DNA from: a virus
IMG/VR virus record: IMGVR_UViG_3300036823_000185
Span: 1 to 46,251 of that record
Direction: 5' to 3' (one strand)
Length of the DNA: 46,251 nt
The notes beneath the pieces were generated by a model. That model made no database searches. It was not told the DNA's origin and was given only the letters and a program-made list of their open reading frames with translations. Below, in pieces: positions 14,424 to 35,537 of this stretch (position 1 is its first letter; the number at the start of each line of letters is the position of its first letter). A program made the translations under genes and the position numbers.

Positions 14424-15377
14424 TTATACCCGTTGATAAGGAATGAGGTCGTAATGGCGCGGTTCGCCGAGCGCGTCGTTCACGAGCGTGCCGTGTGCGT
14501 GATGGTGTCCGGGATCCGTCACGACGCCGCCGCCTCCTCCTCCGCCGCCTCCGTTAATCGTCACGACTGCGTTGAAGTCCGTTCCCGTCGCTGCGCCGTG
14601 TGTTGTCGCCACGGAGGCCGCCGTAGCGGCACCCGCTGCGGAAACCGTAATACCCGTGGTGGCGTCGGCCGTGTCGCCCGTAATCAGCGGCGCGATCGCC
14701 GCCTGGAATCCGTCCGCCGCGGCGCCCCACTTCGGATAGGCCGCCTTGTTGCCGGCGCTCGTAAAATCCTCGACCGTGATGCTGGTTGTCGTCCCGTCTG
14801 CATTCAATTGCGCGATGCCGGCGGATCCGTCGCAGAGGCGCCAGCCGGTCCCCGGGTCCGCACGGAAGCCCAGGACCATCCCGGCCGGGATTACTTCCCA
14901 CGGCGCGAACTCGAATGCGCTTCCCGTCCAGCGCATCGTGCGGTTCTTGTCCGTCAGATAGACCAGCAGGTTCGCGTCCAGCGCTCCCAGTGCTTTACCA
15001 AGGGTCGGCGCCGAAGCGAGGGGGCTCGAATACACCGTGCGGACGATCCCCGACATGTACTTCCAGACGTAGCCTGCACTTCCGGACTGCAGCGGTTGAC
15101 TCAGGTAGATCAGGCTGGTGTCGGTTTCGACGAACTGCAGCCCCTTGAAGTTATTCGCGTCAAAGGCGATGATGTTCAACCGCTCATTGCGCGTGCCGAC
15201 GACAGTCTGGTTTTCTTCGCTGCTAAGCTCCGCCGCAAACTGCTTTAGCTGTTGGCCGATCCAGAGGAAGCGCATGTTGAGCTCCGAAGCGGCGCTCTCC
15301 GGAAGCTGGACGTCCGGCGGCAGCTCGAGTATCGTTGTGGCGCCCATCAGGAGATCGGAATTTCCCTCATCTGCCAC
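14424..15377 (-). CDS. Tail fibre / collar protein with His-rich tip
   Basis: 317 residues. The tail-collar signature lies at 164-185 (PAGMVLGFRADPGTGWRLCD and following GS), the motif with which fibre tip domains begin. It is followed by alanine/threonine-rich sequence, a run of nine glycines (276-284) and GHHHAHG (290-296). Histidine pairs of the HxH kind coordinate metal in some phage fibre tips. The gene overlaps the end of the nozzle gene by 31 bp. It is likely a receptor-binding or adhesion component of the tail. Confidence 0.8.
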   Translation of the reverse strand: MADEGNSDLLMGATTILELPPDVQLPESAASELNMRFLWIGQQLKQFAAELSSEENQTVVGTRNERLNIIAFDANNFKGLQFVETDTSLIYLSQPLQSGSAGYVWKYMSGIVRTVYSSPLASAPTLGKALGALDANLLVYLTDKNRTMRWTGSAFEFAPWEVIPAGMVLGFRADPGTGWRLCDGSAGIAQLNADGTTTSITVEDFTSAGNKAAYPKWGAAADGFQAAIAPLITGDTADATTGITVSAAGAATAASVATTHGAATGTDFNAVVTINGGGGGGGGGVVTDPGHHHAHGTLVNDALGEPRHYDLIPYQRV

Positions 15378-19534: not shown

Positions 19535-21706
19535 TTAGTTAACCAGCGCCAGCTGGAGCGGATCGCTGCCGGTCACCACGTAAATATCGCCCGCGACCAA
19601 CCCCCCGGAAATCGCCGCCGCGTTGTTGGCGAAGGCCGCAAGGCCGCCCAAACCGAGATGGCCGTCCGACTTAACATACGTTCTGGCGTTGCCAGCGGCA
19701 TCCTCGAACGACGCCAGATTACTCGTGCTTTGTGCTGTAGCGGAAGCCTGCACGATCACACGCGTGGGTCCGCTGTCGTCCTCATTCCGTACGTACATCG
19801 TGCAGACTCCCCCGATCGGGAACGCTACCGGCGACGTATTTGGCCCGACCGCCATGCAGGAGCTTGTGAGGCCAATCATGTTGGTCGGAGATAGCGCGCT
19901 GTACCATGCACCAATGCCAGACTGCACCCACCAGCCAAGGGAATTCGCGGGTAACGGCGATGTGCTGGCGGATTCCATGAAGCGTAGCGCGCTCGTATCG
20001 TTGTAGCCGTGATGTATTAAGAAGCCATCGTTTCCGCTCAATCCCGCATCTCCGCACAGGAAAGGAAAATCTGACCCCGTGACGTCGCGCTGGCAAAACT
20101 TCGTTGCCGACCAGCTGTTCGCCCAAAGTTGGCCCGTAATGTCCGTGTATTTGTTCCTGGCATCGGTGACGCTCGTCGAATGAGGATCCTGCGCGAAGTT
20201 CACCACCGCGCTGCCTTCCACGTTGATGTTGTTCGTAAAGGTTAAGAGATCAGTGCCGGAGTAAGACGGGGACAACACAACCCAGTTGGAGTTTCCGCCC
20301 GTTTTGACACTCGGATCGGAAGGCTGATCAACCAGGCTCGCAACGACAACGCTGTCCCCGGTCAGGTTCACATGGCAGTTGATCCACTGATTGGCGATGC
20401 TGATGATGTGTTGGTTGGAGGTGACGTCGCTGTCCCAGCCGACGATGTTGCTGATCAGCGTGATGGGGCGGTTGTCGTCGACGGCATTTGCCGTGAACTC
20501 GAAAAACTTCGCATTCATCGTGATGCTGGAATCGTTCTCGGCTTGGATGCTCTGAATTACGGGATTGCCGTGAGGGCCATCGAAGCAGACGACGCATGGA
20601 TTCGTGCCCTGCATGACACCCGCAGTTCCCTGGGAAATTTCGTAATATCCGGCGTATTCGATACTGAAAGCCCGGTTGATTCCGGCGATGGAAAAGTGAT
20701 CGAACTTCGTGTAGGCGATGTTGGCGTTTTTCATCCGCACGCCGATGTCGGCATCGGTTACGTTGAAGTCGCTGATCGTGACGCCGTCCACCTGCTCGTC
20801 TGAAACGATGTCGTTGTCGCCGAGCGAAATGGCCGCGCCGGCGATATCCATCGTGGAATCACCGAAATGCTCGATAAGCCCGTTCCGAAAAGTGTTCCTT
20901 TGCGCTGTTGCGCCGGATTCCGCATCGATCATGTACCCGGTTAGGTTGGCCGTATTCGCGCCGTCGAGGCTGATCCCGTCGACCTTTGTTCCGTTCACGG
21001 CATGAACGTTTACCATCGCCGATCCCGTCGCGTAGGCGACGGATGGCGCGCTTCCTGCCCACTTGAGCATGCAGCCGCCGTCCAGACTTGATCCCTGCTG
21101 CAAATCGGTCGGTGGGCCGTAGAAATGAACGTAAGCGGGCAGCGTCAGGCCCGCGGTGATCTTATAAGTTCCGACCGGACAGAACAGCGACTTGCCGCCG
21201 GTTGATGCGTCCAGCGCCGTCTGGATGGCGGTGGTCGAATCATTCGTCCCGGTCGGGTCGGCACCATAATCCACAATCGACGGAAGCTCATTGTGCAGCT
21301 TCGTTTCGATGGCCGAAGTCTCGGCCGCCATCTGGTTGTGCAGCCCCGCCGTTACCCGGCCCTGCACGGCCCGGCTCGCGAGGTGCGACGCCGCCGCGGT
21401 TCCGTCGTAGCCGCGCCCATCCGCGTTCGGGCATGCCGATGATCCGACCGTGAAAGCCGTGCCGCTCGCGACAGCGCACACGGCGATCACCTCACTGTCG
21501 ATCGTGATGACGCCCGGAGCGACGAAGCCGGAGGTGCTGGGAACCGTCAGAGTCGTGGAAGTGGAGTTTACGCCGAGCGAAAGTGTGCTGGCGTAGTTGT
21601 TCGATGCGATCTTCAGGTCAGAATTGGTCGCCACGCGTCCGGGGAAAACGGCCGTGCTCTGCGCAAGCAGTGATCCGGCCAGAAAAAGAAGACTCAGTTT
21701 TTTCAT
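19535..21706 (-). CDS. Beta-helix tailspike with an N-terminal signal peptide
   Basis: 723 residues. The ATG at 21706 overlaps the stop of the upstream adaptor gene (ATGA), and the product begins MKKLSLLFLAGSLLAQSTA, a classical Sec signal peptide with cleavage after A-Q. Then follows a phage fibre N-terminal domain (FPGRVATNSDLKIASNNYAS ... GRGYDGTAAASHLASRAVQG) and a pectate-lyase-3 type right-handed beta-helix beginning ELPSIVDYGADPTGTNDSTT near residue 144. Spikes of this type bind and cut host polysaccharide. A secretion signal on such a protein is unexpected, since virions assemble in the cytoplasm. Confidence 0.85.
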   Translation of the reverse strand: MKKLSLLFLAGSLLAQSTAVFPGRVATNSDLKIASNNYASTLSLGVNSTSTTLTVPSTSGFVAPGVITIDSEVIAVCAVASGTAFTVGSSACPNADGRGYDGTAAASHLASRAVQGRVTAGLHNQMAAETSAIETKLHNELPSIVDYGADPTGTNDSTTAIQTALDASTGGKSLFCPVGTYKITAGLTLPAYVHFYGPPTDLQQGSSLDGGCMLKWAGSAPSVAYATGSAMVNVHAVNGTKVDGISLDGANTANLTGYMIDAESGATAQRNTFRNGLIEHFGDSTMDIAGAAISLGDNDIVSDEQVDGVTISDFNVTDADIGVRMKNANIAYTKFDHFSIAGINRAFSIEYAGYYEISQGTAGVMQGTNPCVVCFDGPHGNPVIQSIQAENDSSITMNAKFFEFTANAVDDNRPITLISNIVGWDSDVTSNQHIISIANQWINCHVNLTGDSVVVASLVDQPSDPSVKTGGNSNWVVLSPSYSGTDLLTFTNNINVEGSAVVNFAQDPHSTSVTDARNKYTDITGQLWANSWSATKFCQRDVTGSDFPFLCGDAGLSGNDGFLIHHGYNDTSALRFMESASTSPLPANSLGWWVQSGIGAWYSALSPTNMIGLTSSCMAVGPNTSPVAFPIGGVCTMYVRNEDDSGPTRVIVQASATAQSTSNLASFEDAAGNARTYVKSDGHLGLGGLAAFANNAAAISGGLVAGDIYVVTGSDPLQLALVN

Positions 21707-22605
21707 AGAACCTTGTTGATGGCGCGGAACTGCCGCGCCCAGCGATCGGCCCGGTGACGGGTGTATGTGCCCTGCATTGCCATCTGGGCTCCGCCCTGCC
21801 GGCGCGACTCCTCGTTCACCAGCTCGCCCACGCGTTTTTCGAACAGTCCCTCGTGGAGTTGCGCGGCGGCAAGATTGTTCACGCCGGGCAACATGCTGAG
21901 ATCCGCCCTGCAGCCGGCCTTGAGCGCACCCGGCCGGATCCACGGCAAAAGCGCGACGCCGGTATCGGCGGTGCCGAAAGCCGTCTGTTCGGCGGTAAAG
22001 GAAATCAGGATCGAATAGACATTGTCCGGCGCCGGCCACAGTTCGAGCTGCATCGGAATCGGCGAGCCGCTGCCGTCCGCCCACTGGCTCCATCGCGTTG
22101 GCGGGCCCACCGCGATTCGCGCTGGATCCGTTACGTCGGCTGACGCGCGATCGCGCTTCTCGATCGGGATCGGCAGGCTGATGTTCCGCAGGCTGCGGAC
22201 GATCCGACAGCTCGTCGGCAGCGTCAGGATCGACTGAGAGATTACGAAGCCCGCTGTCGCGTTCGGGTCGCCCTCGTACGGCCGGTCGAGCGTCGCGTGC
22301 GTCGCATCGACAAAGGTCAGCGTATAGGCTTCCGTGCGCCCGTCGAGGTGGATCTGGCGCCCACTCATTTGAGTGGTGAACGCCCCGTCCGTCAGGACGA
22401 GCGCCGTGCTTGCGTTCGTCGTCTGGATCGTGCCGGTGTTGTACTGGGCGACGGTCTGAATTACCGTCTCGGTATCGAGGCGGGACCACGGGAGCCGGTC
22501 GAGGATCTGCGTATAGCGGTCGTTGATGATCCCCTGGCGCACGTCGGCATCGACGCCCGGGAACTCCTTGGCAAGAAGAAAGTTGATGTCGCCGAACGTC
22601 GACAT
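21703..22605 (-). CDS. Head-tail adaptor (tubular A-like)
   Basis: 300 residues. It starts STFGDINFLLAKEFPGVDAD with DVRQGIINDRYTQILDRLPW, the N-terminal helix pair and D-R-x-P-W motif of adaptor proteins that join portal and nozzle. SILTLPTSCRIVRSLRNISL and a C-terminal helical region with basic residues (KRVGELVNEESRRQGGAQMA) complete the pattern. Its stop overlaps the start of the tailspike gene. Confidence 0.7.
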   Translation of the reverse strand: MSTFGDINFLLAKEFPGVDADVRQGIINDRYTQILDRLPWSRLDTETVIQTVAQYNTGTIQTTNASTALVLTDGAFTTQMSGRQIHLDGRTEAYTLTFVDATHATLDRPYEGDPNATAGFVISQSILTLPTSCRIVRSLRNISLPIPIEKRDRASADVTDPARIAVGPPTRWSQWADGSGSPIPMQLELWPAPDNVYSILISFTAEQTAFGTADTGVALLPWIRPGALKAGCRADLSMLPGVNNLAAAQLHEGLFEKRVGELVNEESRRQGGAQMAMQGTYTRHRADRWARQFRAINKVL

Positions 22606-22607
22606 GG

Positions 22608-23081
22608 CTACGCCCTGCCTTCGACCTGCAGCGAGAAAGAGATGCCGGTGGCGACCGTTCCCGCGATCACAAGCTCGTAACCCAGCTGGTGGCCCAGGTT
22701 GCCATGCCGGACGGAGCCCGCCGCCAGGGTCTTGGTGGCGTTTGTCGAACTGATCAGCAGGATGCCTTCGTTCGTCGCCGCGCCGTTCGACGCCATGATC
22801 TGGGGTATCTGGTCCGCCAGAATACGCGCCATGTAACGCTTGGCTCCCGTCGTTATAACCTGCGGAAAGTGGATCAGGTCCCAGCTCGATACGCCGTCGC
22901 TCGTGGTGATGTAGACGTCGTACGTTTCATCGCCGGTGTCCCGCTCGGCGGCGGTGATGTCGAGCGTGACGACGAGTTCCCGGAAGCGATTCAGCTTCTG
23001 ATCGACAGGCGCCAGTGAGAACGAGGCCGCCTTTGTGGCGGCCGCCTGCAGTTGCAGTTTTATGCGTTGCGGCGGCGTCAT
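22608..23081 (-). CDS. Probable virion protein
   Basis: 157 residues from an ATG at 23081 (in-frame upstream sequence belongs to the overlap with the secreted fibre gene). Mostly beta: AASFSLAPVDQKLNRFRELV, VYITTSDGVSSWDLIHFPQV, GYELVIAGTVATGISFSLQV. No family is recognised. Position between the fibre-like and adaptor genes suggests a tail or neck protein. Confidence 0.6.
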   Translation of the reverse strand: MTPPQRIKLQLQAAATKAASFSLAPVDQKLNRFRELVVTLDITAAERDTGDETYDVYITTSDGVSSWDLIHFPQVITTGAKRYMARILADQIPQIMASNGAATNEGILLISSTNATKTLAAGSVRHGNLGHQLGYELVIAGTVATGISFSLQVEGRA

Positions 23082-23092
23082 CCCTGTGGCCC

Positions 23093-23830
23093 TTAGTAAG
23101 TGAGCGCGATCGGTCCGGTCGACGCGGTGAACGTCGTGGGCGGAGTGATCGCGGCGGGCGTATTGAACACCCACGTGAAATTGGCGGCGTTGGTGTCGCC
23201 AAACGGCTGCGTGCGCAGCTTCGCCGTGGTTCCATTCGTGGCGACGCCAAGGTAGTAAAGTCCTGGCCCTTTCGCCGCATACGTCGCCGTAAAAGGCACA
23301 CGCTGGAAAGTGGCTGTGGTTCCGACCGTGACGGAACTGTCGAGCGCCGAGGTGGCGAGAACGGCGCCCCCGGAGTCGAAAAGAAACACAACGACCTTGT
23401 CGGTACCGCCCACGCTGCCGATCAGGTAACTGATGCCGGTCAGGGTTTCATTCGTCGGGATGAAAACCTCGGACACCCAGATCTTCGTCGCGATCCCCGC
23501 GGTGTCCGTTCCGGTTGTGGTCGCGGCGGGGACGAAGCCGGCCGCATAATTGTGCGTCCCCGACGTCGCGGAAGTCTGCACGATACCCGCGGTGGAAGTG
23601 AAGACGCCACCCGAATCGATCTTTGTGAGGATCGTATCCGAGGAGTTCCTCACCTCGAGCGCGTCGACCGACTGGCCGGCCGCGAGTTTGATCACGAGCG
23701 GCTTATCGAGCGGAGAGAGCGCCTTGATTAACAGGGCGCGGAGTCCGGTCGGCTTCGCCTGCGCAAAGAGCAAGGAAGCTGCGAGCAGGATGCCGAGGGC
23801 GGCGCCGGAAACTTTGAAGCGAGTGGTCAT
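23093..23830 (-). CDS. Fibre-like protein with signal peptide
   Basis: 245 residues starting TTRFKVSGAALGILLAASLL and FAQA, a strong Sec signal peptide with cleavage near residue 26. The next part (KPLVIKLAAGQSVDALEVRN with SSDTILTKIDSGGVFTSTAG) is the coiled-to-beta entry motif common in phage fibres, and the rest is a beta-sandwich-like domain (KVVVFLFDSGGAVLATSALD). GGAG precedes the ATG. It is first gene of the tail transcription unit: the 49-bp iteron box and the capsid terminator lie immediately upstream. Confidence 0.7.
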   Translation of the reverse strand: MTTRFKVSGAALGILLAASLLFAQAKPTGLRALLIKALSPLDKPLVIKLAAGQSVDALEVRNSSDTILTKIDSGGVFTSTAGIVQTSATSGTHNYAAGFVPAATTTGTDTAGIATKIWVSEVFIPTNETLTGISYLIGSVGGTDKVVVFLFDSGGAVLATSALDSSVTVGTTATFQRVPFTATYAAKGPGLYYLGVATNGTTAKLRTQPFGDTNAANFTWVFNTPAAITPPTTFTASTGPIALTY

Positions 23831-23864
23831 GAAATTCGTCTCCTGAGATTTGGTCTCTTTTGGT

Positions 23865-23913
23865 CGTTAACGCGACATGTCGCGGTAAATGTCGCGGCGG
23901 TGTCGCATAAAAA
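23865..23913 (-). promoter_or_regulatory. 49-bp TGTCGC-iteron box, copy 1
   Basis: On the plus strand GCGACATGTCGC (a perfect palindrome) is followed by further TGTCGC units at 11-12 bp steps, about one helix turn. The box matches 40079-40127 at 44 of 49 positions, in the same orientation. It lies between the capsid terminator and the secreted fibre gene, so it probably controls or contains the promoter of the tail unit. The minus strand holds a 13-codon frame (MRHRRDIYRDMSR) that is also kept in copy 2. Confidence 0.7.
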
Positions 23914-23942
23914 GGGCGGCGTGCGGATGCAGAGGCCGCCCT
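23909..23942 (-). terminator. Rho-independent terminator after the capsid gene
   Basis: AGGGCGGC and GCCGCCCT form an 8-bp GC stem (23935-23942 and 23913-23920) with a 14-base loop, followed on the minus strand by TTTTT. It closes the unit ending with the major capsid gene and separates it from the tail genes. Confidence 0.8.
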
Positions 23943-23957
23943 CTCGTGGGGTATCCC

Positions 23958-24884
23958 TTAAACGCCCGGCGTCCCGTAGGTGCCGTAGTAATCGGTCCAG
24001 CCGTGCGACTTCTTGTACCGCATGGCGGTTTTGCCGCTTTCGGTGTCGAAGTCGTAGCCGTAGTCCGTATACGGCTTCCGGCGCCAAAAGAATTTCAGCC
24101 CGGTTTCCGCCGGCGGCGCAACCAGGAACCATGCCACGGTCGACGTCAGATAATGCCAGACCAGAACCTTCTCGATCGGCCCGGAGTCGCCGTGCTGGAA
24201 GGCGTTGATCGTGTGGTTCGCAGTGTCCGACCGCCAGTCGCGGCCGCCCAGAATTTCGTAGGCGCGCCAGCGCGTGTTCGACGGGACGACGAGTCGCGGC
24301 GTCGGCAGCCGCAATTTCTTGCCGCTGGAGTCCCGCATGTTCTCGTAGTCTGTGAGCGCCAGCTCGAGCGAAGTGACGTCGAGGTCCGCGGCGACGGAAA
24401 GCAGGTTCGATTGCACCCCGCCGACTTTGATCAGCGGATGCGATGCGCTGAAGAGAGCCACGCCGTCGGGGCCGGCGAAGGACCCGTTAAAGCCGTTATT
24501 GAAGTGCGCGGCCGGGTCGATCTCGATCGATTCCTTGGCCGAGCGGCCGAGTTCGATTCCCATCTTTTTGACAAGCGAGATCTTGTCGTCTTCGACAACG
24601 TCCTGCGACGTCATGAAGCCCAGCCCGTAGCGGAGATGCGTGAGCGTGGAATGAAAGCCCTGCATCGGCTGGTCGTAGCGAACCGGCGAGCCTTCGTTCA
24701 CCTGCGTGAAGAGCCCAAGGCCGGTCACCTCGCCAAACTGCTCGATCGACCGGTTCGACGTTCCAACGTCGAAGATTTGCGAGTACTCGTCCGGGCGCTG
24801 GTTGTAGCGTTTCCAAATCACGCTGTTCAGTGCCGGCAGCATCGTGGTGCCGAAGAAGTCGGAAAATTGTCCTCTGATGATCAT
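23958..24884 (-). CDS. Major capsid protein
   Basis: 308 residues. It opens IIRGQFSDFFGTTMLPALNS and contains FDVGTSNRSIEQFGEVTGLG, RYGLGFMTSQDVVEDDKISL and GVALFSASHPLIKVGGVQSN, the pattern of Mu gpT-like HK97-fold major capsid proteins, in which the F-S/N-x-x-H-P motif is typical. AAGGAGA precedes the ATG. It follows the decoration and scaffold candidates and is directly followed by a strong terminator. Confidence 0.88.
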   Translation of the reverse strand: MIIRGQFSDFFGTTMLPALNSVIWKRYNQRPDEYSQIFDVGTSNRSIEQFGEVTGLGLFTQVNEGSPVRYDQPMQGFHSTLTHLRYGLGFMTSQDVVEDDKISLVKKMGIELGRSAKESIEIDPAAHFNNGFNGSFAGPDGVALFSASHPLIKVGGVQSNLLSVAADLDVTSLELALTDYENMRDSSGKKLRLPTPRLVVPSNTRWRAYEILGGRDWRSDTANHTINAFQHGDSGPIEKVLVWHYLTSTVAWFLVAPPAETGLKFFWRRKPYTDYGYDFDTESGKTAMRYKKSHGWTDYYGTYGTPGV

Positions 24885-24908
24885 GGTGTTTTTCTCCTTC
24901 TTCTCCGC

Positions 24909-25436
24909 TTAGGCGGCGAGCGTCGAGGCAGGCGTCAGGGCATGCCGATTGAAAGACACTTCCACGCGCGAATTCGCGCCGTAGGCGTTGTCAGGCTGGC
25001 TGTAAAGCCGGTGGACGTGAACGTCCTTCGCGGCTGTAGTTACCAGCGTGCCGACGATGTGGCCCGAGATGCCGGTGTAGCCGGCGCCCGGGGCGGTCAC
25101 GGACGGAGCGTTCAGCGTCAGGTTCGCGTTATAGCCCATCAGGGCGAGCGTCGACGTGTCCGAGCACTGGGCTTCGAACATCGCGTCGGGCGAGTTCATC
25201 ACCACGTGATCGCTGAGCGTCGAGGCAAGACCCGCATTCAGGCTTACGCCGGTGAAAAGGGTTGTGCCGGGTGTGGACGTGCCGGAGACGTAGCCAGCTA
25301 TGCGGCTGACTGCATCGAACATGTAAAGAGCCTGCGCGTCGCCCGAAGCTTTCTGATAAGTCCCGACGGTCGGAAACCCGCCGGAAAGCGTTCGGCCGAG
25401 CGGCCGCAGACCGTGCGGATTGTTTACGTTCGCCAT
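24909..25436 (-). CDS. Capsid decoration protein candidate
   Basis: 175 residues. It begins ANVNNPHGLRPLGRTLSGGF and is beta-rich with many Gly, Ser and Thr (GISGHIVGTLVTTAAKDVHV). N-P-x-G-L-R-P at the start and position immediately before the major capsid gene fit a head decoration or stabilisation protein. The start has GGAG ten bases upstream. Confidence 0.7.
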   Translation of the reverse strand: MANVNNPHGLRPLGRTLSGGFPTVGTYQKASGDAQALYMFDAVSRIAGYVSGTSTPGTTLFTGVSLNAGLASTLSDHVVMNSPDAMFEAQCSDTSTLALMGYNANLTLNAPSVTAPGAGYTGISGHIVGTLVTTAAKDVHVHRLYSQPDNAYGANSRVEVSFNRHALTPASTLAA

Positions 25437-25468
25437 ATAGGCGGTTCTCCTTCAAGGTCTTGTTTTTT

Positions 25469-26209
25469 TTAAAAGCCCTCCCCATCGCCTTGAAGACCTA
25501 AATCAGAATCCCCGGGGTGAGGACCTTCCGGTCCGGGATTCTCGAAGTGCGCAAATGAGCGGCCGCGGAGGCTGCTACTGAGATCGCCTTCGTGCTTCGG
25601 AGTTCGGTTGACGACCCGCTCCCTGCCGGGATTCCGCGGGTCAAAATCTTCGCCGTACATCTCGCGCTGCGCATCGTGCGACTTCTCTTCGAAGCGCGCC
25701 TGGATGGCAGCGGCGCGTTCCTCCGGCATGTAGCCGAGGACAAGCGTGCCGAGCGTCACGGGGTTGCCGTTCTTCATGCAGATCTGATAGCCGCGGGTCA
25801 TACCCTCGGAATCGACCTTGTCACGCGAAAGAAACTTCGGGCGCATCCCCGGCGGTACGTTTTCGCGGACGAGTTCCAGCATCGGATCCGACGCCTCGAA
25901 ACCCATACCGCGGTCGAGGTCGTCGCCGCGCTGGCGGATTCGGCCGTGCGTCTCGTCGCGGATGATCGACGTGTGCGCGACGGTCTTGCCCTCGTTCTTT
26001 TCCACGTAGCCCTGGTCGGTCATTTCGTACGGGAACATCGCCCAGAGATGCTCCGGAACGGGCTCGCCGTTGATCGTGCAGTTCGAAAGATGGCGCGGGT
26101 TGGTCAAGTCGTTCTCGAAGACGCCGTCGGTCGCGATGAACGGGCGGCTTTCCCCCACTCCCTGACTCATCGCGGGGCGCTCTGCGAGTTCTGGTGGTCT
26201 TTTCGCCAT
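25469..26209 (-). CDS. Phage head-region protein of unknown function
   Basis: 246 residues, hydrophilic. A compact middle (GVFENDLTNPRHLSNCTING with EPVPEHLWAMFPYEMTDQGY) and RGYQICMKNGNPVTLGTLVL are followed by a charged disordered tail ending in Gly/Pro. It stands between the scaffold-like and decoration-like genes; a minor head or assembly protein is likely. No family recognised. Confidence 0.65.
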   Translation of the reverse strand: MAKRPPELAERPAMSQGVGESRPFIATDGVFENDLTNPRHLSNCTINGEPVPEHLWAMFPYEMTDQGYVEKNEGKTVAHTSIIRDETHGRIRQRGDDLDRGMGFEASDPMLELVRENVPPGMRPKFLSRDKVDSEGMTRGYQICMKNGNPVTLGTLVLGYMPEERAAAIQARFEEKSHDAQREMYGEDFDPRNPGRERVVNRTPKHEGDLSSSLRGRSFAHFENPGPEGPHPGDSDLGLQGDGEGF

Positions 26210-26212
26210 TTG

Positions 26213-27175
26213 CTACCTCCGCCTTCCGCTGCCGGCGGCTTTGCGGATCCGCGTGGCTTCCTTCGAAAACTCCTGGTCCGTGAGGCCCATCTGGCGGGCG
26301 ACATCGCGCGACTGGTCGGACATCACGAATTCGCCGCCGTCGCGACCTGTGCGGCTTTCCTTGCGTCCGCGATCGCCCGACTGTGACGCGATGTGGATAT
26401 CACGCTCGGTACGGCTGGGCGGCGAGCGTAAGATCGGCTCGCGATCGTCTTCCTCGTCATCCTCGAAAAACTCTTCGCCGCCACGATCGGCGGTTCGGCG
26501 GTTTGCGGGCGTTCCGTCGCCCCCTTTGCCCTTGAGTTCCGCCTGGGCTGCTTTCGCGGCAAGGTACAAGGTGACCGGGTTCTTCGCCGCGGCGGGATCG
26601 AGCTTTACGGCGGCGCGGACATGTGCCGCGGTGGCCTTGTAAAGCTCGGACTCCGCATCGGCGAGATCCGGAAACTCCCGGATGACAACGCTTTCTCTCC
26701 CGACTTCGGTGCGCGCGTGACTGACAACCTGGGTAGCGGCCGTCTTAGCCGCCTTGCGCGATTCCTCGCGCACGATCTTTACGACCTCGGCCTTACGGAC
26801 AAAACCGCGTTTCGCAAGGGCGTCGCGCCCGAGCTTCGAGAGGTCCTCGACGAGCGCGGCTGGATCTTCGGGCTCATCCTCGTCCTCTTCGGGATCTTCG
26901 TCTTTACCCCAGTCGATATCGACGTCATCACCGGGTGCCGGTGTTTCCGTCCGCGGCTGCCCGTTGCCACGGAAGAGATCGAGGAGCTGCCGGTTCGAGG
27001 TGCGGAGCTCCGCCACTTCGCGCTCGAGCGAGTCCGTGCGTTCGTCTTTCTCCGGTTTCTCGGGCGGCGGTTGCGCTCCCTGCGGTTGCTGCTGTTGCTG
27101 CTGATCGCGCTGGGGCTCCGGATCGGGCGCTTCGAAGGGCCTGCCCATCAGATTGAGTGAGGTGAAGCCTCCCAT
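26213..27175 (-). CDS. Scaffolding protein candidate
   Basis: 320 residues with the composition of phage scaffolds: a Q/P-rich N-terminus (run of Gln near residue 26), a coiled coil (SLEREVAELRTSNRQLLDLF, about 48-70), an acidic stretch (DEDPEEDEDEPEDPAALVED), a helical middle (VRKAEVVKIVREESRKAAKT) and a basic C-terminus. Position upstream of decoration and capsid genes is as expected. Similarity is by type, not by a specific family. Confidence 0.7.
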   Translation of the reverse strand: MGGFTSLNLMGRPFEAPDPEPQRDQQQQQQPQGAQPPPEKPEKDERTDSLEREVAELRTSNRQLLDLFRGNGQPRTETPAPGDDVDIDWGKDEDPEEDEDEPEDPAALVEDLSKLGRDALAKRGFVRKAEVVKIVREESRKAAKTAATQVVSHARTEVGRESVVIREFPDLADAESELYKATAAHVRAAVKLDPAAAKNPVTLYLAAKAAQAELKGKGGDGTPANRRTADRGGEEFFEDDEEDDREPILRSPPSRTERDIHIASQSGDRGRKESRTGRDGGEFVMSDQSRDVARQMGLTDQEFSKEATRIRKAAGSGRRR

Positions 27176-27346
27176 TTACCGGCGGCCTCCCTTCACGTTG
27201 TTCAGGCGGGGGTTGGACTTCTTCGCTGCCGGGCTCGCCTTGCGCGTCATTGATGCGAGGATCGCGCCGGCGTCCTTCATCGGAACGCCTTCGCGTTTCG
27301 CGATTGATTTCTGGGCGCCCTTAAATCCGGGATGCGATTTCGCCAT
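27176..27346 (-). CDS. Small basic phage protein with ASMTRKASPAAKKSNPRL motif
   Basis: 56 residues from an ATG at 27346. KSHPGFKGAQKSIAKREGVP, MKDAGAILASMTRKASPAAK and KSNPRLNNVKG match a small conserved phage protein often found near portal or scaffold genes; its role is not known. The stop is followed directly by the scaffold ATG. The longer open frame upstream covers another gene and is not used. Confidence 0.75.
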   Translation of the reverse strand: MAKSHPGFKGAQKSIAKREGVPMKDAGAILASMTRKASPAAKKSNPRLNNVKGGRR

Positions 27347-27348
27347 CG

Positions 27349-27510
27349 TTAACAGCCCACCGGCTTGCCGGGTTTCACGCCGTTCGAAATTCCCGTGCCG
27401 GCACGCATGCGGGCCGCGGTCGGCATTGGCGCCGCCGTGGTCTTGCGCATCGCGCGGGGCGCGGGCATTCGGCTCGGTTTCGAAATCGGAAGCATCTGCT
27501 TTTTCGCCAT
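27349..27510 (-). CDS. Small basic protein, 53 residues
   Basis: From an ATG at 27510 the product is rich in K, R, M, P and A (MAKKQMLPISKPSRMPAPRA at the start, NGVKPGKPVGC at the end). It fits between the CxxC protein and the small basic protein with 2-3 bp gaps on each side, which supports its being a gene. Similar short Met/Pro-rich basic proteins occur in phage head modules. No function can be given. Confidence 0.6.
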   Translation of the reverse strand: MAKKQMLPISKPSRMPAPRAMRKTTAAPMPTAARMRAGTGISNGVKPGKPVGC

Positions 27511-27513
27511 CTT

Positions 27514-27879
27514 CTACACGCCTTTGCGTTGCCCATAAAGCGTGCCCCTGAGAAGGTCGGCGCGCTTCCGCTCGTAGGCATCGCTGCACGTACGGCAGAG
27601 CAACTGGTAGATTCCGTCTTTGGGGACGAGGAACATTTTGAGTTCTGCCGGGTTATCGCCAGCCTCGAGGCGCAGCCTTAGCTCCGCCCAGGTAACGCGG
27701 CACTCGAAGCATCCTTTTGGGGCGCCGTCCTTCGCGAGCGCGTCGATGTTCGCGTCGTGCCACTCGCGGCAGCGGAGGCACATCACGACGCCGCCGATAC
27801 CGATCGGGAAGACCTCGTGCGGGTTCCGGAAGACCGAGCAGTAGTGACAGCGGACGCTGACAACATTCGGCGCGTTCAC
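27514..27879 (-). CDS. Zinc-ribbon-like protein with four CxxC pairs
   Basis: 121 residues from a GTG at 27879 overlapping the upstream TGA (GTGA). Four pairs, CHYC (11-14), CLRC (34-37), CFEC (57-60) and CRTC (95-98), would bind two zinc ions. The rest is unremarkable. A nucleic-acid or protein-binding role is likely, but the family is not recognised. It is unusual to see such a protein in a head module, though HNH-like or regulator proteins do occur there; no HNH residues are seen. Confidence 0.7.
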   Translation of the reverse strand: MNAPNVVSVRCHYCSVFRNPHEVFPIGIGGVVMCLRCREWHDANIDALAKDGAPKGCFECRVTWAELRLRLEAGDNPAELKMFLVPKDGIYQLLCRTCSDAYERKRADLLRGTLYGQRKGV

Positions 27880-28100
27880 GCCGTCTTTCTCTCGAGAGCG
27901 TCGATGCGCCGGCCGTGGTCGACGTGGCGCTCGTCCGCCAGTTCTCTCCGGACGAAGGTGTCGTCGAGGTCCTGCAGGAAGCCGGCCAGCTTGCGGTCGA
28001 TGAGCGCCGAGATTACGAAGACGGCGAACGTGGAGACAGCGCTCGACGCGACGACGAGTGCTGTGACCGCCTCCCACGGAACTGACTGGCTTCCTGCCAA
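27876..28100 (-). CDS. Small membrane protein, lysis candidate
   Basis: 74 residues, TTG start with GCAGG eight bases upstream. One membrane helix (VTALVVASSAVSTFAVFVIS) is followed by a charged, probably coiled helix (DRKLAGFLQDLDDTFVRREL ... RRIDALERK). This is the layout of small holin-like or XhlA-like phage proteins, but such proteins have little sequence signature. It is next to other small membrane proteins (28520, 28744), which may together be the lysis set. Confidence 0.6.
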   Translation of the reverse strand: MAGSQSVPWEAVTALVVASSAVSTFAVFVISALIDRKLAGFLQDLDDTFVRRELADERHVDHGRRIDALERKTA

Positions 28101-28114
28101 TGTCGACCTGCTGT

Positions 28115-28519
28115 TTACTTTGCTGCGGGTACGGGACTCGCCGGCTGTGCGTTGACGGCGACGACGGCCATCTGGACACCGGTCTGAATCAGTCTGGTTG
28201 CTGCGCCTGCGAGTTCGGGTGGCAGGTTCTTCTGCACCGCGGCCGTTGCCGTGTTCAGGAGAATGTTGCCGATCGCCGCGGGATTATCGTCGATCTGCTG
28301 CGCGACGGGCCCCACGTATTTCGTCAGGACGGCGGACACTTCCTGCACGGTCCGGTTGGGCGTGAGCGCCGCGATGTCCTCGACGATCGGGATCGCGTGG
28401 GGCAGGATGTCGGCCACCTTCGCCAGATCGGCCTCGACAGCGTCGACGACCTCTTTTGCTTTGCCGCGCGTGAAGAACGATTCGACCGCGCCGAAGAACT
28501 TCTGAAACACGTTTGCCAT
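28115..28519 (-). CDS. Phage protein of unknown function
   Basis: 134 residues, entirely helical in appearance: VFQKFFGAVESFFTRGKAKE, VVDAVEADLAKVADILPHAI, then LAGAATRLIQTGVQMAVVAV. An amphipathic N-terminus and the final hydrophobic helix suggest membrane contact. GGAGAG precedes the ATG. It lies between two small membrane proteins, so a part in lysis is possible. Confidence 0.6.
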   Translation of the reverse strand: MANVFQKFFGAVESFFTRGKAKEVVDAVEADLAKVADILPHAIPIVEDIAALTPNRTVQEVSAVLTKYVGPVAQQIDDNPAAIGNILLNTATAAVQKNLPPELAGAATRLIQTGVQMAVVAVNAQPASPVPAAK

Positions 28520-28708
28520 TTACTCTCCTGAGTTCGGGGATTTCGCAAAGTAGAGGAGCACGGCGACGACGGCGCCCATGGCGGCCGCCTTCATGTGCTG
28601 CGGGCTGAAGTCGAAGTTGCCTTCGCTTATCCAGTGCTGCAGGACCGTCGCGCCGGCGCCAATGCCGACCGCGAGTGCGCCGTGTAAGCTCTTTGCGAGT
28701 TTGCCCAT
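28520..28708 (-). CDS. Holin-like protein, two membrane segments
   Basis: 62 residues with two hydrophobic stretches (LHGALAVGIGAGATVLQHWI and MKAAAMGAVVAVLLYFA) separated by a short polar loop, a size and layout like class II holins. Its stop is followed at once by the next ATG. No endolysin is recognisable nearby, so the holin assignment is only by shape. Confidence 0.5.
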   Translation of the reverse strand: MGKLAKSLHGALAVGIGAGATVLQHWISEGNFDFSPQHMKAAAMGAVVAVLLYFAKSPNSGE

Positions 28709-28743
28709 TGCGCTCGGGTTATCGGCGCGGGCGGACGGACGGC

Positions 28744-29511
28744 TTAGAAAACGCCGGCGGCTCCGGCCGCGCGGACGACGCCCGAGCCGGTGGTCAGAAT
28801 GTCCTTGATCGTCCCGCCTACGCCTCGTGGGGCGACGGCTTTCGATGTAAACGTGTGCACGTCTTCAGTGATGCCCGTCAGGTTCTTCAGAAACAGGGGC
28901 GAGTCTTTCGTTATTTCGGCGCCGGTTCGCTCCGCCTCGCCGAGAAGCCCGTTAACGCGGCTCCGCATACAGCCGCCGTAGCCCGTTCCGTCGCTGTGTC
29001 TGCAGGTGATCTCCGGTTCGAAAGAGAGCCACGCCGGCGACGCCGCGAGCTGGTCCGGAAGGATCGTGTATCGGTTCATCGCGAGCGTGACGGATCCACG
29101 CGGGCCGACGAGCTGGTCGGCTGCGAGGGCGAGCGTATGGTTTGCCGTGCCGAGCTGCGAGGAGATTTCGTCCTGCACGAGCCCCAGCCGTCTGTCGACG
29201 GTGGCCGGCAGCGCCTGTGCGATCGCGAGCGCCTGCGACGAGCGGTCGTCGGCATTCTTTCGCGTGCGATCGAGGACCTGCAGCGCCAGGTGCACTTCGT
29301 CGAGGGCGCGGTTCGCTTTGCCGTCCACCAGGTCGATTGCGCGGTTGACGTCGCGGTCGCCGCGGTCGAGGCTGTCTTTCGCGTGGCGCTCGATGTTGCC
29401 GGCGGCGGCGTCCACCTGATCGATCGCCGCGGCGACGTGGATCCCGATCAGGCCAACGATGCCCACGATCGCGACGAGGGCGGCGGATTTGACGGCTTCG
29501 TACGGTGTCAT
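28744..29511 (-). CDS. Membrane-anchored coiled-coil protein
   Basis: 255 residues. One N-terminal membrane helix (SAALVAIVGIVGLIGIHVAA) is followed by a long coiled-coil region (DQVDAAAGNIERHAKDSLDR through about residue 130), a region with two cysteines (TCRHSDGTGYGGCMRSRVNG) and a Gly/Ala-rich hydrophobic C-terminus. The ATG overlaps the stop of the secreted gene upstream. It could span the periplasm in the manner of a spanin or act in ejection; neither is shown. Confidence 0.6.
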   Translation of the reverse strand: MTPYEAVKSAALVAIVGIVGLIGIHVAAAIDQVDAAAGNIERHAKDSLDRGDRDVNRAIDLVDGKANRALDEVHLALQVLDRTRKNADDRSSQALAIAQALPATVDRRLGLVQDEISSQLGTANHTLALAADQLVGPRGSVTLAMNRYTILPDQLAASPAWLSFEPEITCRHSDGTGYGGCMRSRVNGLLGEAERTGAEITKDSPLFLKNLTGITEDVHTFTSKAVAPRGVGGTIKDILTTGSGVVRAAGAAGVF

Positions 29512-30440
29512 CAGATGAGCGGACTCACGTTCGCGGTGTTCCGGAAAATAATGTTCCAGGAATAGCTTATGTGCCCCGGCGCTGCGAGGTCGCCCTCGTC
29601 TACCGGCCCAACAATCTTGTACGGGAAGTACCCGGAGGCCAGGTCGCCAGCCTTGATGGTGCCTTGCACGTGCGAAATCTGAGCCCAGGTAACTGCGTCA
29701 TATAAATACCAGTCAATTAGCCCAGTTGGTTCCCCAGTGCCCGGGAAAAGCCCGCCGGATCCGGGCGTAAAATCCAGATGCATGCTGCTGTAGTACTCTG
29801 CGCCCTGCGTCAACGGGACATCTGGCGTGTGCCCCGTCGAGCCATCCTGCCACGTGCTCTCGATGTTTGCGCAATAACAGCCGGTAGTGCCGTTCCGCAG
29901 CTGCAAAACACCATACGGTCCCGCCCCGGAATATAGGCCGTGGAAGGTGAAGAGATTCCCGGCGTTGCCATCATCGTTAGCTCCCGGGATAAAGAACCCC
30001 GCCACGGTCCCATAGGGAATTTCGCTGTACGGGTCCTGGTAATTCAAGATGAGCAGCGGACCGGTCTGATACTGCGGGGTCGCATGATCATAGGCGTAAG
30101 ACTGGGTGGCGAAAGTGGTGTCGTACAAATCACCGTCGACAACCTGAATCTTGCTGTGCAACGGTCCCTGCGATGCGCCGACGAACTGCGGCGGGTTAGT
30201 GATCGTAGCCCCGAAGATGTCGCCGCCGTTGACATTTCCGAACGCGCCCGTCACGCCAACATCCGCGCTCATGGTCGCGCCCGGCGTCGCCCCATTCAGG
30301 GACATAAAGGTATCGACGGTAAGCGTGGAGGGTGGCGCGGAGCTTCCATACAGGATCCCGCTTACCGAGTTGTCGCTCACTCCCTGCGCCCAGCCTGGGG
30401 ACGCCATGGCAAGCAGAGCAAACACGGCCTTACTTTTCAT
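29511..30440 (-). CDS. Secreted beta-rich protein in the head module
   Basis: 309 residues with a signal peptide MKSKAVFALLAMASPGWAQ, cleavage after residue 19. The rest is beta-rich and aromatic (TGPLLILNYQDPYSEIPYGT, GYFPYKIVGPVDEGDLAAPG, HISYSWNIIFRNTANVSPLI), suggestive of a lectin-like jelly roll. The ATG lies inside the last codons of the preceding secreted gene, with GGGAG upstream. A surface-exposed or exported phage product is unusual in a structural operon. No family recognised. Confidence 0.65.
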   Translation of the reverse strand: MKSKAVFALLAMASPGWAQGVSDNSVSGILYGSSAPPSTLTVDTFMSLNGATPGATMSADVGVTGAFGNVNGGDIFGATITNPPQFVGASQGPLHSKIQVVDGDLYDTTFATQSYAYDHATPQYQTGPLLILNYQDPYSEIPYGTVAGFFIPGANDDGNAGNLFTFHGLYSGAGPYGVLQLRNGTTGCYCANIESTWQDGSTGHTPDVPLTQGAEYYSSMHLDFTPGSGGLFPGTGEPTGLIDWYLYDAVTWAQISHVQGTIKAGDLASGYFPYKIVGPVDEGDLAAPGHISYSWNIIFRNTANVSPLI

Positions 30441-30771
30441 ACGTGATCGAAGCTCCCTCGCTATTCGTCGCCGAGTCCATCCACCAGTTGTTCAGGTCAT
30501 GGGAAACGCCGGGAACCTGGTTGAGGGGAATCGCCTGCCCGGCTGTCAGGCAGACGCCGGTGTTTGTGCTGACAAGGGTGGTCGAACCGCCAACGCAGAT
30601 TTTTCCAGTGTTCGAGGAGAGCGCTTGGATCGTTCCGGAGACGAACGGCGTCGACGACGACGCCAGCCTTACGGGCGTCCCCGCCGTCGTGACGGTCTTC
30701 AGGATCGTTGTAACGCTGAGCTGTGCGATGGCGGTCCAGCAGATTACGAAAAATGCGACTAATTTCCTCAT
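30430..30771 (-). CDS. Small secreted phage protein
   Basis: 113 residues: signal peptide MRKLVAFFVICWTAIAQ, then a beta-rich domain (TAGTPVRLASSSTPFVSGTI, ALSSNTGKICVGGSTTLVST, NTGVCLTAGQAIPLNQVPGV, WWMDSATNSEGASITYEK). The second part has the text of small head or fibre-associated proteins found between portal and capsid genes of many phages, which normally have no signal peptide. The ATG overlaps the upstream TGA, which fixes the start. The two cysteines could form a disulphide after export. Confidence 0.7.
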   Translation of the reverse strand: MRKLVAFFVICWTAIAQLSVTTILKTVTTAGTPVRLASSSTPFVSGTIQALSSNTGKICVGGSTTLVSTNTGVCLTAGQAIPLNQVPGVSHDLNNWWMDSATNSEGASITYEK

Positions 30772-31004
30772 TTGTTTCCTTTGTTCCCGCGCGCTTCGGT
30801 CGCGATGATCTCGGGTACTTTGAGGGCGAGTTCGAGGGCGAGGATCATTCCGCGCGTTTTATCGCCGCAGCCGTCGCCTTCGATTAACAGCCGAACGCGC
30901 CGCGCGTGCTCTTCGCGGATCCGCTTCGCGACCAACGCCCAGCCCGGCGTGCGGAGCGTCTCCTCGATAAATTCACTGTCCAGGCGGTCGACTTCCCGGT
31001 CCAT
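30768..31004 (-). CDS. Small phage protein of unknown function
   Basis: 78 residues from ATG 31004 (a TTG at 31010 overlapping the upstream stop is a possible alternative). Charged helical N-terminus (MDREVDRLDSEFIEETLRTP) and EEHARRVRLLIEGDGCGDKT, then LALELALKVPEIIATEA. The pattern resembles small proteins encoded just downstream of portal genes in podophages, whose function is unknown. Confidence 0.6.
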   Translation of the reverse strand: MDREVDRLDSEFIEETLRTPGWALVAKRIREEHARRVRLLIEGDGCGDKTRGMILALELALKVPEIIATEARGNKGNK

Positions 31005-31006
31005 GT

Positions 31007-31255
31007 TCAATCCGCTCCGTTGGCAATGCCGACGCCGGCGAGGTGGACTCCAAGAAGGTCGTTCGGGTCGGATGATCCGGTCCCGCGTTTTACCCGCAGC
31101 GCGAGCTCCAGCCGCGACTTGCACCCGAGCTTCTGGTACATCTTCGAGAGGTAGACCTTTACCGTCCCTTCGCTGAGCGAAAGCCGAAAAGCAATCTCTT
31201 TGTTCGCGAGCCCTTCGCTTACGAGCGTCGCGATCTGCCCCTCCCGTCTGGTCAT
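31007..31255 (-). CDS. Stand-alone LuxR-type helix-turn-helix regulator
   Basis: 82 residues, almost only a GerE/LuxR C-terminal domain: TRREGQIATLVSEGLANKEI, AFRLSLSEGTVKVYLSKMYQ, KLGCKSRLELALRVKRG. The T-x-R-E start, G-x-x-N-K-E-I and T-V-K-x-x/H core match the family well. There is no sensor or receiver domain. The ATG overlaps the portal stop, so it is made together with late proteins. It may adjust late transcription or act on host promoters after infection; no target site was identified. Confidence 0.85.
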   Translation of the reverse strand: MTRREGQIATLVSEGLANKEIAFRLSLSEGTVKVYLSKMYQKLGCKSRLELALRVKRGTGSSDPNDLLGVHLAGVGIANGAD

Positions 31256-33417
31256 AGCGTTGCTCCCGCGGGCGCCGGCGGTCCGGACGGTCCGCCCGCG
31301 GGCAAGCCCGGCACAATCCCGCCGGCTGCAGGGGATTGGAGGACCTGTTGCGCCGGCGTCGGCGGAATCGGCGACTGCTGTTGGGGCGCGAGCGAGCGGA
31401 CGATCTGATTCACCATGGACTGCATCAGCATCTTCTGTCCTTTTTGCGCCTTGTGCTCCTGGATATGAGCCGCCATCTGATTGACGGCTGCTTTGTCGTA
31501 GCTCTGCCCTTTCATCTGGACGTAGTCGACGAGCCGGCGCTGGTGATCCTGCAAGTGGAAGTCGTCGTTATCGGCGGGGTTGACGTGCACGTCCTCGCCG
31601 CGCTGGATCATCGACCACTCTTCCTTCGGGTTGCGCGGCCGATCGGCATCGGGTGGCTGCGGCACGATCGACGCGAAATCGTCGTCGCCGAGCGCCTTGT
31701 GCATTCGGTTGGTCACAAGCCACAGAGCGGTTGGGTTCTGGGCTATAAGCGGGTTCTGCAGGTCGAGCTCGTAGAGCTGCAGGGCTTTCTGTTTGTCCGC
31801 CTCGCGCGACCATACGTTCGTCGCGAACTCGATGTCGAAATCGTACATCCCGCCGCGCTCGCTCGGCGTCATGTACGCGCCGCCGTGCTTCGTATCGAAG
31901 AGCCCGTCGGCGTCGTCGCCCGTCACGCGGAAGAAAACATCCTCGGTGCAGAACTGCTGATCGAGCTCCCAGATGTCGCGTGCGATCGCGCCGACGTCTT
32001 CGCGCAGGAACCGCATGTCGAGGTCCGCCCGGACGTTGCCTTGCTGGATAAGCGCGATCTGTCCGGTCGCGGTCCGCGGCGCGTTCGGCCGGTCGATCGC
32101 GCGGCCCATCGCCTGGTCTGAGTTTCCTGTCACCCGCTCGGCGTATGCCAGTACGGACTGTTCTTTGACAACGCAGCCCTGCAGGTCCGCCTGGACTTTT
32201 ACCACGTTCACCTTCTCAGGGTGCTCGCTCGGGATCGCCTCGCCGGGCCCGTACTTCTGCGCCTTCGGATCCCATCCGGAACTGGGGCTATAGAAAATGA
32301 GCGGCCACACCGTGAGTTGCTGAGCATCCGTGAACAGGTTGTGGTTCGCCGAGGCCTCCGCCTCGATTTGTTCGAGCATCTCGCCTATTCCCATCGGCCA
32401 CCGCGTGCCGTCGCGGTAGCTGAGCGCCTCGACGAACGGGCGGCGGTGCTGCATCTTCGGGTACAGCGTCATCAGGTCCTGGACGCCGATTACCATGTCG
32501 CTCAGGTCCGGCAGCGTACGCACGACGATTTCCTGCTCGTACATCGAGCGGCGAGAAAAGTCGAGGGGGTCTGCGTCCGTCTCGCCCTTCAGCAGCGGCC
32601 GCCAGCGGCCGTACCATTCGTGGACGATGAGCGAGTCGCCGGCGGATTGTGAGTGGGAGTAGAGGACGCCTTCGTCGAGGTCCTTCTCGGCCTTGATCTC
32701 CTCGCCGATCGGCTCGCGCTGCTGCCGTCGGCCGAGTTCGACGATCCGCGAGAAGTTCTGCCGGATTCCCTGGTAGATGGTGCCGTCGCCGCGCAGCAGC
32801 TGGTCCGGCGTCGCGCGGTACCGCCGCATGATGAAACTCAGCTCGTGCAGGCTCTCGACATCCTCGGCCGGCTCGATTACGTCGTCGGGCCACAGCGGCA
32901 GGAAGTCCGGCCCCTCGTAATAGATCTGCGATTGCACCTGCTGCTCGCCGCGGCGCCCGGGTGCCATCGTGTCGAATCGCTTCTGCACCCACGGCCGGTA
33001 AGCGTACGTGTGGCCGAACAGGATCTTGCGGAAGATAAAAACCGATAGCGGGTTCAGCATGCGCATCGAATTGAACATGCGCCAGCTTACGTACAAGCCG
33101 ACCTTTGGGGTCAGGCTCTCGTCGTTCGGTCCAACCGGTTTCGCGATGATCTGCGCGTCGTCGCCGAAGAGCGCTCCGTTCTCGCGCGCCCACTCGGTGA
33201 ACTGGTTCCATTGCGTGACAGGCACGCGGAAATTACTTTTCAGCTCGTCGCCGGCGCGCGGCGGATTCACGCGGCCGCGGAATGACTGGAAGTAGGCACG
33301 AAACTTTTCCATCCGCTCGTTGTGGTCGATGATCGCGCCGCGGTAGTCTTCAGCCACGCGCTGACCGAGGCGCTGCAGCTCGGCAGCCGGGAGCTTGAGC
33401 TGGAAGGAGCGAGGCAC
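31252..33417 (-). CDS. Portal protein
   Basis: 721 residues, GTG start. The N-terminal part (LGQRVAEDYRGAIIDHNERM, later LKSNFRVPVTQWNQFTEWAR), the central wing and stem text (RWPMGIGEMLEQIEAEASAN, FTDAQQLTVWPLIFYSPSSG) and the crown helices with QQ-rich tail (VNQIVRSLAPQQQSPIPPTP) fit the large P22-like portals of short-tailed phages. Portals form the dodecameric DNA gate of the head. Neighbours are a zincin-like gene upstream and the LuxR-type gene overlapping its stop. Confidence 0.85.
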   Translation of the reverse strand: MPRSFQLKLPAAELQRLGQRVAEDYRGAIIDHNERMEKFRAYFQSFRGRVNPPRAGDELKSNFRVPVTQWNQFTEWARENGALFGDDAQIIAKPVGPNDESLTPKVGLYVSWRMFNSMRMLNPLSVFIFRKILFGHTYAYRPWVQKRFDTMAPGRRGEQQVQSQIYYEGPDFLPLWPDDVIEPAEDVESLHELSFIMRRYRATPDQLLRGDGTIYQGIRQNFSRIVELGRRQQREPIGEEIKAEKDLDEGVLYSHSQSAGDSLIVHEWYGRWRPLLKGETDADPLDFSRRSMYEQEIVVRTLPDLSDMVIGVQDLMTLYPKMQHRRPFVEALSYRDGTRWPMGIGEMLEQIEAEASANHNLFTDAQQLTVWPLIFYSPSSGWDPKAQKYGPGEAIPSEHPEKVNVVKVQADLQGCVVKEQSVLAYAERVTGNSDQAMGRAIDRPNAPRTATGQIALIQQGNVRADLDMRFLREDVGAIARDIWELDQQFCTEDVFFRVTGDDADGLFDTKHGGAYMTPSERGGMYDFDIEFATNVWSREADKQKALQLYELDLQNPLIAQNPTALWLVTNRMHKALGDDDFASIVPQPPDADRPRNPKEEWSMIQRGEDVHVNPADNDDFHLQDHQRRLVDYVQMKGQSYDKAAVNQMAAHIQEHKAQKGQKMLMQSMVNQIVRSLAPQQQSPIPPTPAQQVLQSPAAGGIVPGLPAGGPSGPPAPAGATL

Positions 33418-35261: not shown

Positions 35262-35537
35262 TTAGCGGGCTCCACCTCCGTCGAGCCTTTCTTCTCCTGC
35301 GCTTTGGAGTGATCGGTGGAGCGGGCCCCCTTCGCGAACCGTCAGGGTGCATTTCAGCCACCGCAATACTGCCTTGCCGATCGCCGGTACCCGGAAAGCG
35401 TCCGGGTGGTCGATCGCTCGGACGTAGAGCGCGACTTCTCCGAGCGCCAGGATGATTTTGCGATCGTCACGGTGCCTGCGCCTTCGGCGTCTCGGCTTAC
35501 AGTGCATCTCGACGTTCTCGCCTCGGATGATGTACAT
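35262..35537 (-). CDS. Small basic phage protein
   Basis: 91 residues. The ATG at 35537 overlaps the terminase stop (TGATG) and follows GGAGGA. MYIIRGENVEMHCKPRRRRR begins the protein, with an arginine-rich stretch, then KIILALGEVALYVRAIDHPD. Basic sequence suggests nucleic-acid contact. No family recognised. Confidence 0.6.
   Translation of the reverse strand: MYIIRGENVEMHCKPRRRRRRHRDDRKIILALGEVALYVRAIDHPDAFRVPAIGKAVLRWLKCTLTVREGGPLHRSLQSAGEERLDGGGAR

Follow-up and report, generated by a model that had tools for sequence, protein, structure and literature searches.

By textbook accounts, tailed phages assemble in the cytoplasm. Filamentous phages, in contrast, make their coat proteins with a Sec signal peptide, and their virions form in the membrane, from which they are extruded. 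The leaders of SAR endolysins stay uncut. Endolysin Lys44 of phage fOg44 is exported by the host Sec system (PMC6116005), and Sec-exported and SAR endolysins resemble the four proteins described here (SP1–SP4) as phage proteins on the host Sec pathway, but they are lysis enzymes and not appendage proteins. The lambda Lom protein is also exported, with its gene inside the tail module (PMC12309495), but it is an outer-membrane beta-barrel and neither a fibre nor a spike. Export by tailed phages is known for lysis proteins and Lom; for spikes or fibres of tailed phages, our search of the open-access literature found no earlier mention of Sec leaders.

The closest cultured comparison comes from the Tunturi viruses, the hosts of which are Acidobacteriota (PMC11924767). 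Tunturi_1, a cultured podovirus of Tunturiibacter (PP887698; PMC11924767), is like the DNA analysed here (a 46,251-base record of an uncultured soil phage with 62.5% GC, hereafter the window) in having neighbouring fibre and spike genes with Sec-type leaders, mostly A|Q junctions and Cys-rich products. It is cultured, with a known host. It differs in its protein sequences, as the window proteins have no match at E 1e-3 in Tunturi_1, Tunturi_4 or the first 50 kb of Tunturi_3. Leaders were found in Tunturi_1 gp12, gp13, gp14 (annotated tail spike), gp16 and gp17 (annotated virion structural protein); these five genes lie in the six-gene run gp12–gp17 and amount to 12.4 kb of 63.2 kb, i.e. 20% of the genome. 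In four of the five, Q lies no more than three residues from the predicted cut, and the gp13 leader scores only 5.4 on the scale described below. Tunturi_4 has at least two leaders, clear in gp113 and gp114, while a leader in gp111 depends on taking an upstream TTG as the start. The domain under the gp114 leader is internal in Tunturi_1 gp17, where the leader fronts another domain, which suggests that the leader has been retained through domain shuffling. No leader was found in the structural genes of Tunturi_3 (first 50 kb scanned), whose annotated fibres are leaderless; since Tunturi_3 and Tunturi_1 infect the same host strain, export appears not to be obligatory for phages there. The term 'signal peptide' is absent from the Tunturi paper (PMC11924767).

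The minus strand of the window carries a terminase gene (35537–37369), a portal-like gene (31252–33417) with a match in phage G006 to a gene that lies upstream of the capsid gene there, the major capsid gene (23958..24884; PF25209, E 2e-10), adaptor-like and nozzle-like genes assigned by position and reading, a gene for a 1737-aa ejection-type protein with a ddrB-ParB domain (5347–10560; PF18763) and a gene read from its sequence as a collar-type tail-fibre-tip protein (14424..15377). The capsid and collar-type proteins have no leader, and the latter is a possible non-exported receptor-binding protein. A GT4-conflict glycosyltransferase gene (34209–35228; PF20706) adjoins the terminase gene, a putative GNAT-like acetyltransferase gene (13026–13475) is flanked by the nozzle and ejection genes, and a sigma-70-like protein with regions 2 and 4 is encoded at 38013–38753. 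In Tunturi 1 and 3, too, some structural-region genes are interspersed with annotated acetyltransferases. Searches of IMG/VR by capsid, SP1 and SP3 found no close relatives.

The preliminary description had proposed that four genes of the virion modules carry Sec signal peptides, and Sec-type leaders are present on all four. Each gene is on the minus strand, and each leader has a basic end and a hydrophobic core, which is short, and finishes in an A|Q junction. SP1 (19535..21706, 723 aa) is tailspike-like, and its gene follows the adaptor-like gene; its leader MKKLSLLFLAGSLLA (21662..21706) has a predicted cut before Gln16. SP2 (23093..23830, 245 aa) is a fibre-like protein whose gene comes immediately after that of the major capsid protein, with leader MTTRFKVSGAALGILLAASLLFA (23762..23830) and a predicted cut before Gln24. 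SP3 (29511..30440, 309 aa) is beta-rich, with leader MKSKAVFALLAMASPGWA (30387..30440) and a predicted cut before Gln19, and SP4 (30430..30771, 113 aa) is a small jelly-roll-like 'KTVTTAGT' protein with leader MRKLVAFFVICWTAIA (30724..30771) and a predicted cut before Gln17. Two K/R residues precede each core, and the cores are uncharged, hydrophobic and ∼12–17 residues long, which is shorter than a membrane helix. The -1 residue is A in all four leaders; at -3, SP4 has A and SP3 has G, while SP1 and SP2 have L, and neighbouring STA or AQA sites would fit the -3/-1 rule. SP1–SP4 show neither the lipobox Cys of a signal peptidase II (lipoprotein) signal, Gln occupying +1, nor the RR motif of a Tat signal.

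Signal peptide prediction with our own score, which combines n-region charge, hydrophobic core and the -3/-1 rule, gave 7.8, 10.6, 6.7 (the lowest of the four) and 12.0 for SP1–SP4. Among 7,435 internal starts taken as a null, 1.0% score at least 6, 0.5% at least 7, 0.13% at least 8 and none 10 or more, and 12 E. coli leaders range from 7.0 to 11.6. A score of at least 6.5 is reached by 14 of 19 secreted and 7 of 62 other annotated E. coli genes; all seven of the latter are membrane-anchored by name, so the score alone cannot separate a cleaved leader from an anchor. Besides SP1–SP4, no virion gene of the window has a cleavable-looking leader, and the only other high-scoring gene of the virion region (28744–29511, score 7.7) reads as a membrane anchor. 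Thirteen virion-region genes of P22, examined as a control, contain no convincing leader (top score 6.6, a 69-aa ORF). The starts, also described as pinned, hold up well. That of SP1 forms an ATGA overlap with the stop of the preceding gene, the sole other nearby start being a GTG at codon 25 without a Shine-Dalgarno; SP2 has the Shine-Dalgarno CAGGAG; and the SP3 start lies in an 11-bp overlap with the SP4 gene. SP4 has AAAGGAAA, and its codons 2–70 contain no ATG, GTG or TTG, while the 'preceding gene' that it overlaps (30768–31316) is itself merely an ORF.

We then compared the four proteins with their families. In SP1 the leader is followed by a conserved phage N-domain (∼residues 17–140) and a pectate-lyase-type beta-helix (PF12708, E 9e-10). 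Leader and N-domain are 43% identical over 151 aa to the homologue SP1h of an uncultured phage, G002, and the N-domain also occurs, leaderless, within another tail protein (L077–L079). SP2 has a structure model with pLDDT 60, and the C-terminal domain of the protein is found in nine viral contigs, in both leader-bearing (e.g. L083, GFG|Q; L084, LDA|Q) and leaderless relatives (L069, L070, L080, L081 and L085), and some genes of the leaderless kind lie close downstream of a capsid gene. SP3 is lectin-like (LamG-type) by eye only, and searches found neither a family nor a homologue. The 'KTVTTAGT' family of SP4 is present in 219 viral stretches and, judged by these matches, is a widespread phage domain, without a match among the Pfam and PHROG models; in L024, L026, L030 and L062 it forms the C-terminal end of fibre-like ORFs of 550–1254 aa. 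Among 61 distinct loci examined, a leader was found in L016 only, the remainder starting near the domain or having other N-terminal extensions. The SP4 model (AlphaFold2, pLDDT 93) matches unnamed phage proteins in BFVD; the top PDB matches, endospore appendage (Ena) subunits (E 7.5e-3, TM 0.48), were set aside as too weak. Two database matches were set aside, i.e. L017 as a false positive (pectate-lyase start) and L154 as doubtful (GTG start). The preliminary description named homologues with an internal start past the leader as evidence against it; such homologues are numerous for SP2 and SP4, but in the window no start that leaves out the leader is supported. The occurrence of both families with and without leaders, and of the leaderless SP1 N-domain in L077–L079, points to repeated gain or loss of leaders.

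Leaders recur in other uncultured phages. The 87.8-kb phage G002 (IMGVR_UViG_3300037424_002164; L084, L167–L171) is like the window in having SP1 and SP2 homologues with leaders, a leader on the gene that follows the capsid gene and A|Q junctions; it is unlike the window in its P22-type coat protein (PF11651) and an additional leader-bearing subtilase, and its capsid and terminase have no match in the window. The subtilase (S8), with Big_7, is encoded in the virion module at 70417–71874 (L170:10418–11874; leader score 6.2). G002 also has a giant ejection-type protein (5551-aa ORF, 44326–60981) and, at a comparable location, a gene similar to the GNAT-like acetyltransferase gene of the window. 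A reading of the left part of G002 as host DNA was dropped in favour of phage, given terminase- and portal-like genes there (by position and reading), and its A|Q leaders were therefore left out of the host evidence below. L016 has five leader-bearing genes: the post-capsid gene, the KTVTTAGT gene, the fibre gene after it, a gene for a 108-aa protein and another fibre-type gene. In L004 and L028 a fibre gene with a leader immediately follows the KTVTTAGT gene, and in L027 one lies farther away; the capsids of these four phages are distant kin of the window capsid. The gene directly after the capsid gene carries a leader in the window, G002 and L016.

Leader-bearing proteins are Cys-rich in four of the five phages tested: Cys accounts for 15 of 1314 residues against 11 of 5086 in leaderless virion proteins of the window (p 3e-5) and for 83 of 4017 against 29 of 5581 in Tunturi_1 (p 5e-12), with enrichment also in L016 (p 8e-4) and L028 (p 0.03) and none in L004 (p 1.0), although these p-values are optimistic because residues are treated as independent and the comparison genes were hand-chosen. 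The mature part of SP4 has two Cys and its L016 relative four, against 0 or 1 in the leaderless domains listed (one exception with 2). A Cys pair is common to SP1 and SP1h, and leaderless relatives of the domain have one Cys. SP2 contains none, and the SP1 count is odd. Such enrichment suits an oxidising compartment.

The junctions also bear on the host. A resolvase was uninformative in this respect (31–34% to Bacteroidota, and also found on plasmids of many phyla), so the A|Q code was used. [AGS]Q occurs near the cut in 19 of 30 leaders predicted in 200 kb of a Granulicella (Acidobacteriota) plasmid and in 3 of 14 secreted E. coli proteins; four A|Q junctions out of four, as in the window, have a chance of 0.16 at the Granulicella rate versus 0.002 at the E. 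coli rate. The better fit to Granulicella makes an Acidobacteriota host likely.

Leader anatomy, host-type A|Q junctions, recurrence in unrelated phages and Cys enrichment in most phages tested support the earlier suggestion that fibre-like proteins are exported, and the leader-bearing proteins are, on this evidence, probably exported via Sec. Export may serve one of the purposes suggested with it, namely receptor blocking, biofilm degradation or attachment outside the cell. As for their fate, we consider a mechanism in which Sec signal peptides would have been added to the outer, last-attached virion proteins, i.e. the tailspike, head or fibre proteins and the small jelly-roll protein. Sec would move these proteins across the inner membrane of an Acidobacteriota host, signal peptidase I would cleave ahead of Gln, and the beta-rich proteins would fold outside the cytoplasm, often disulfide-bonded as their Cys content suggests. 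The capsid, portal, adaptor and ejection proteins, which are leaderless, would assemble in the cytoplasm; cell lysis would bring both sets together, and the appendages would dock onto finished particles. The leaders, starts, recurrence, junction code and Cys content are observations, while export, cleavage, disulfides and docking are inferred; late docking of exported appendages on virions seems to us close to an even chance, though slightly below it. More tentatively, we propose that in some tailed phages virion building is split between two compartments: the particle would form in the cytoplasm, while Sec would export the spikes and fibres, which would be oxidised beyond the cytoplasm and join the particle only once the cell has lysed.

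A conserved N-domain with a variable remainder is typical of particle-anchored spikes. SP1 and SP1h have this pattern and the leader genes retain virion positions, both of which lead us to lean to late docking; 'exported' need not mean off-virion. The same N-domain pattern speaks against a possible but doubtful alternative, that the exported proteins never become virion parts and act off the particle, either coating or stripping receptors, which would prevent re-infection and keep progeny from being lost on debris, or loosening exopolysaccharide, a role assigned to the beta-helix spike, the subtilase and the lectin-like proteins. Against off-particle action also stand the SP2 and SP4 relatives, which are virion-module proteins of other phages, and the Tunturi products, which are annotated (by annotation only) as tail spike, tail fibre or virion structural protein. 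In its favour are the leader-bearing subtilase with Big_7 among the virion genes of G002, which looks like a secreted enzyme, and the leaderless collar-type fibre of the window, which could be the receptor-binding protein; both count against late docking. Off-particle action is further favoured by the PDB entry closest to the SP1 beta-helix, a pneumococcal surface protein (a weak match, E 8e-5), and by the precedent of lambda Lom, an exported protein encoded in a tail module (PMC12309495). Late docking, for its part, requires that diluted proteins find particles after lysis; Tunturi_3 infects the host strain of Tunturi_1 with leaderless annotated fibres, and the unenriched L004, the Cys-free SP2 and the odd count in SP1 also argue against it.

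An unlikely alternative is that the N-termini stay uncut, as inner-membrane tethers or as hydrophobic assembly or membrane-inserting peptides retained on the virion. Our score also catches anchors (the seven high-scoring E. coli proteins among the 62 not secreted were all anchored), and the annotation of P22 gp7 describes a host protease that trims the N-terminus of a virion protein without export. However, a membrane helix would be longer than these cores of ∼12–17 residues, all four A|Q junctions match the presumed host code, and an uncut peptide on a cytoplasmic protein would leave the Cys enrichment unexplained. Chance hydrophobic N-termini or miscalled starts are very improbable: the SP1 and SP3 scores are merely moderate and most SP4 and SP2 relatives lack a leader, but null rates are 0 to 1% each, SP4 has no alternative start and the others no supported one, and the leader is kept despite divergence in G002 and clustered in Tunturi_1.

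Two-compartment assembly, if true, would represent a new way for tailed phages to assemble. If several lineages give up to a fifth of the genome to exported fibre-type proteins, these may be either late-docking appendages or an overlooked secretome of phage-encoded surface-modifying proteins misannotated as virion proteins. Since leaders occur in cultured phages of Acidobacteriota, both readings are testable now, and genes annotated as 'tail fibres' in soil viromes would have to be checked for signal peptides.
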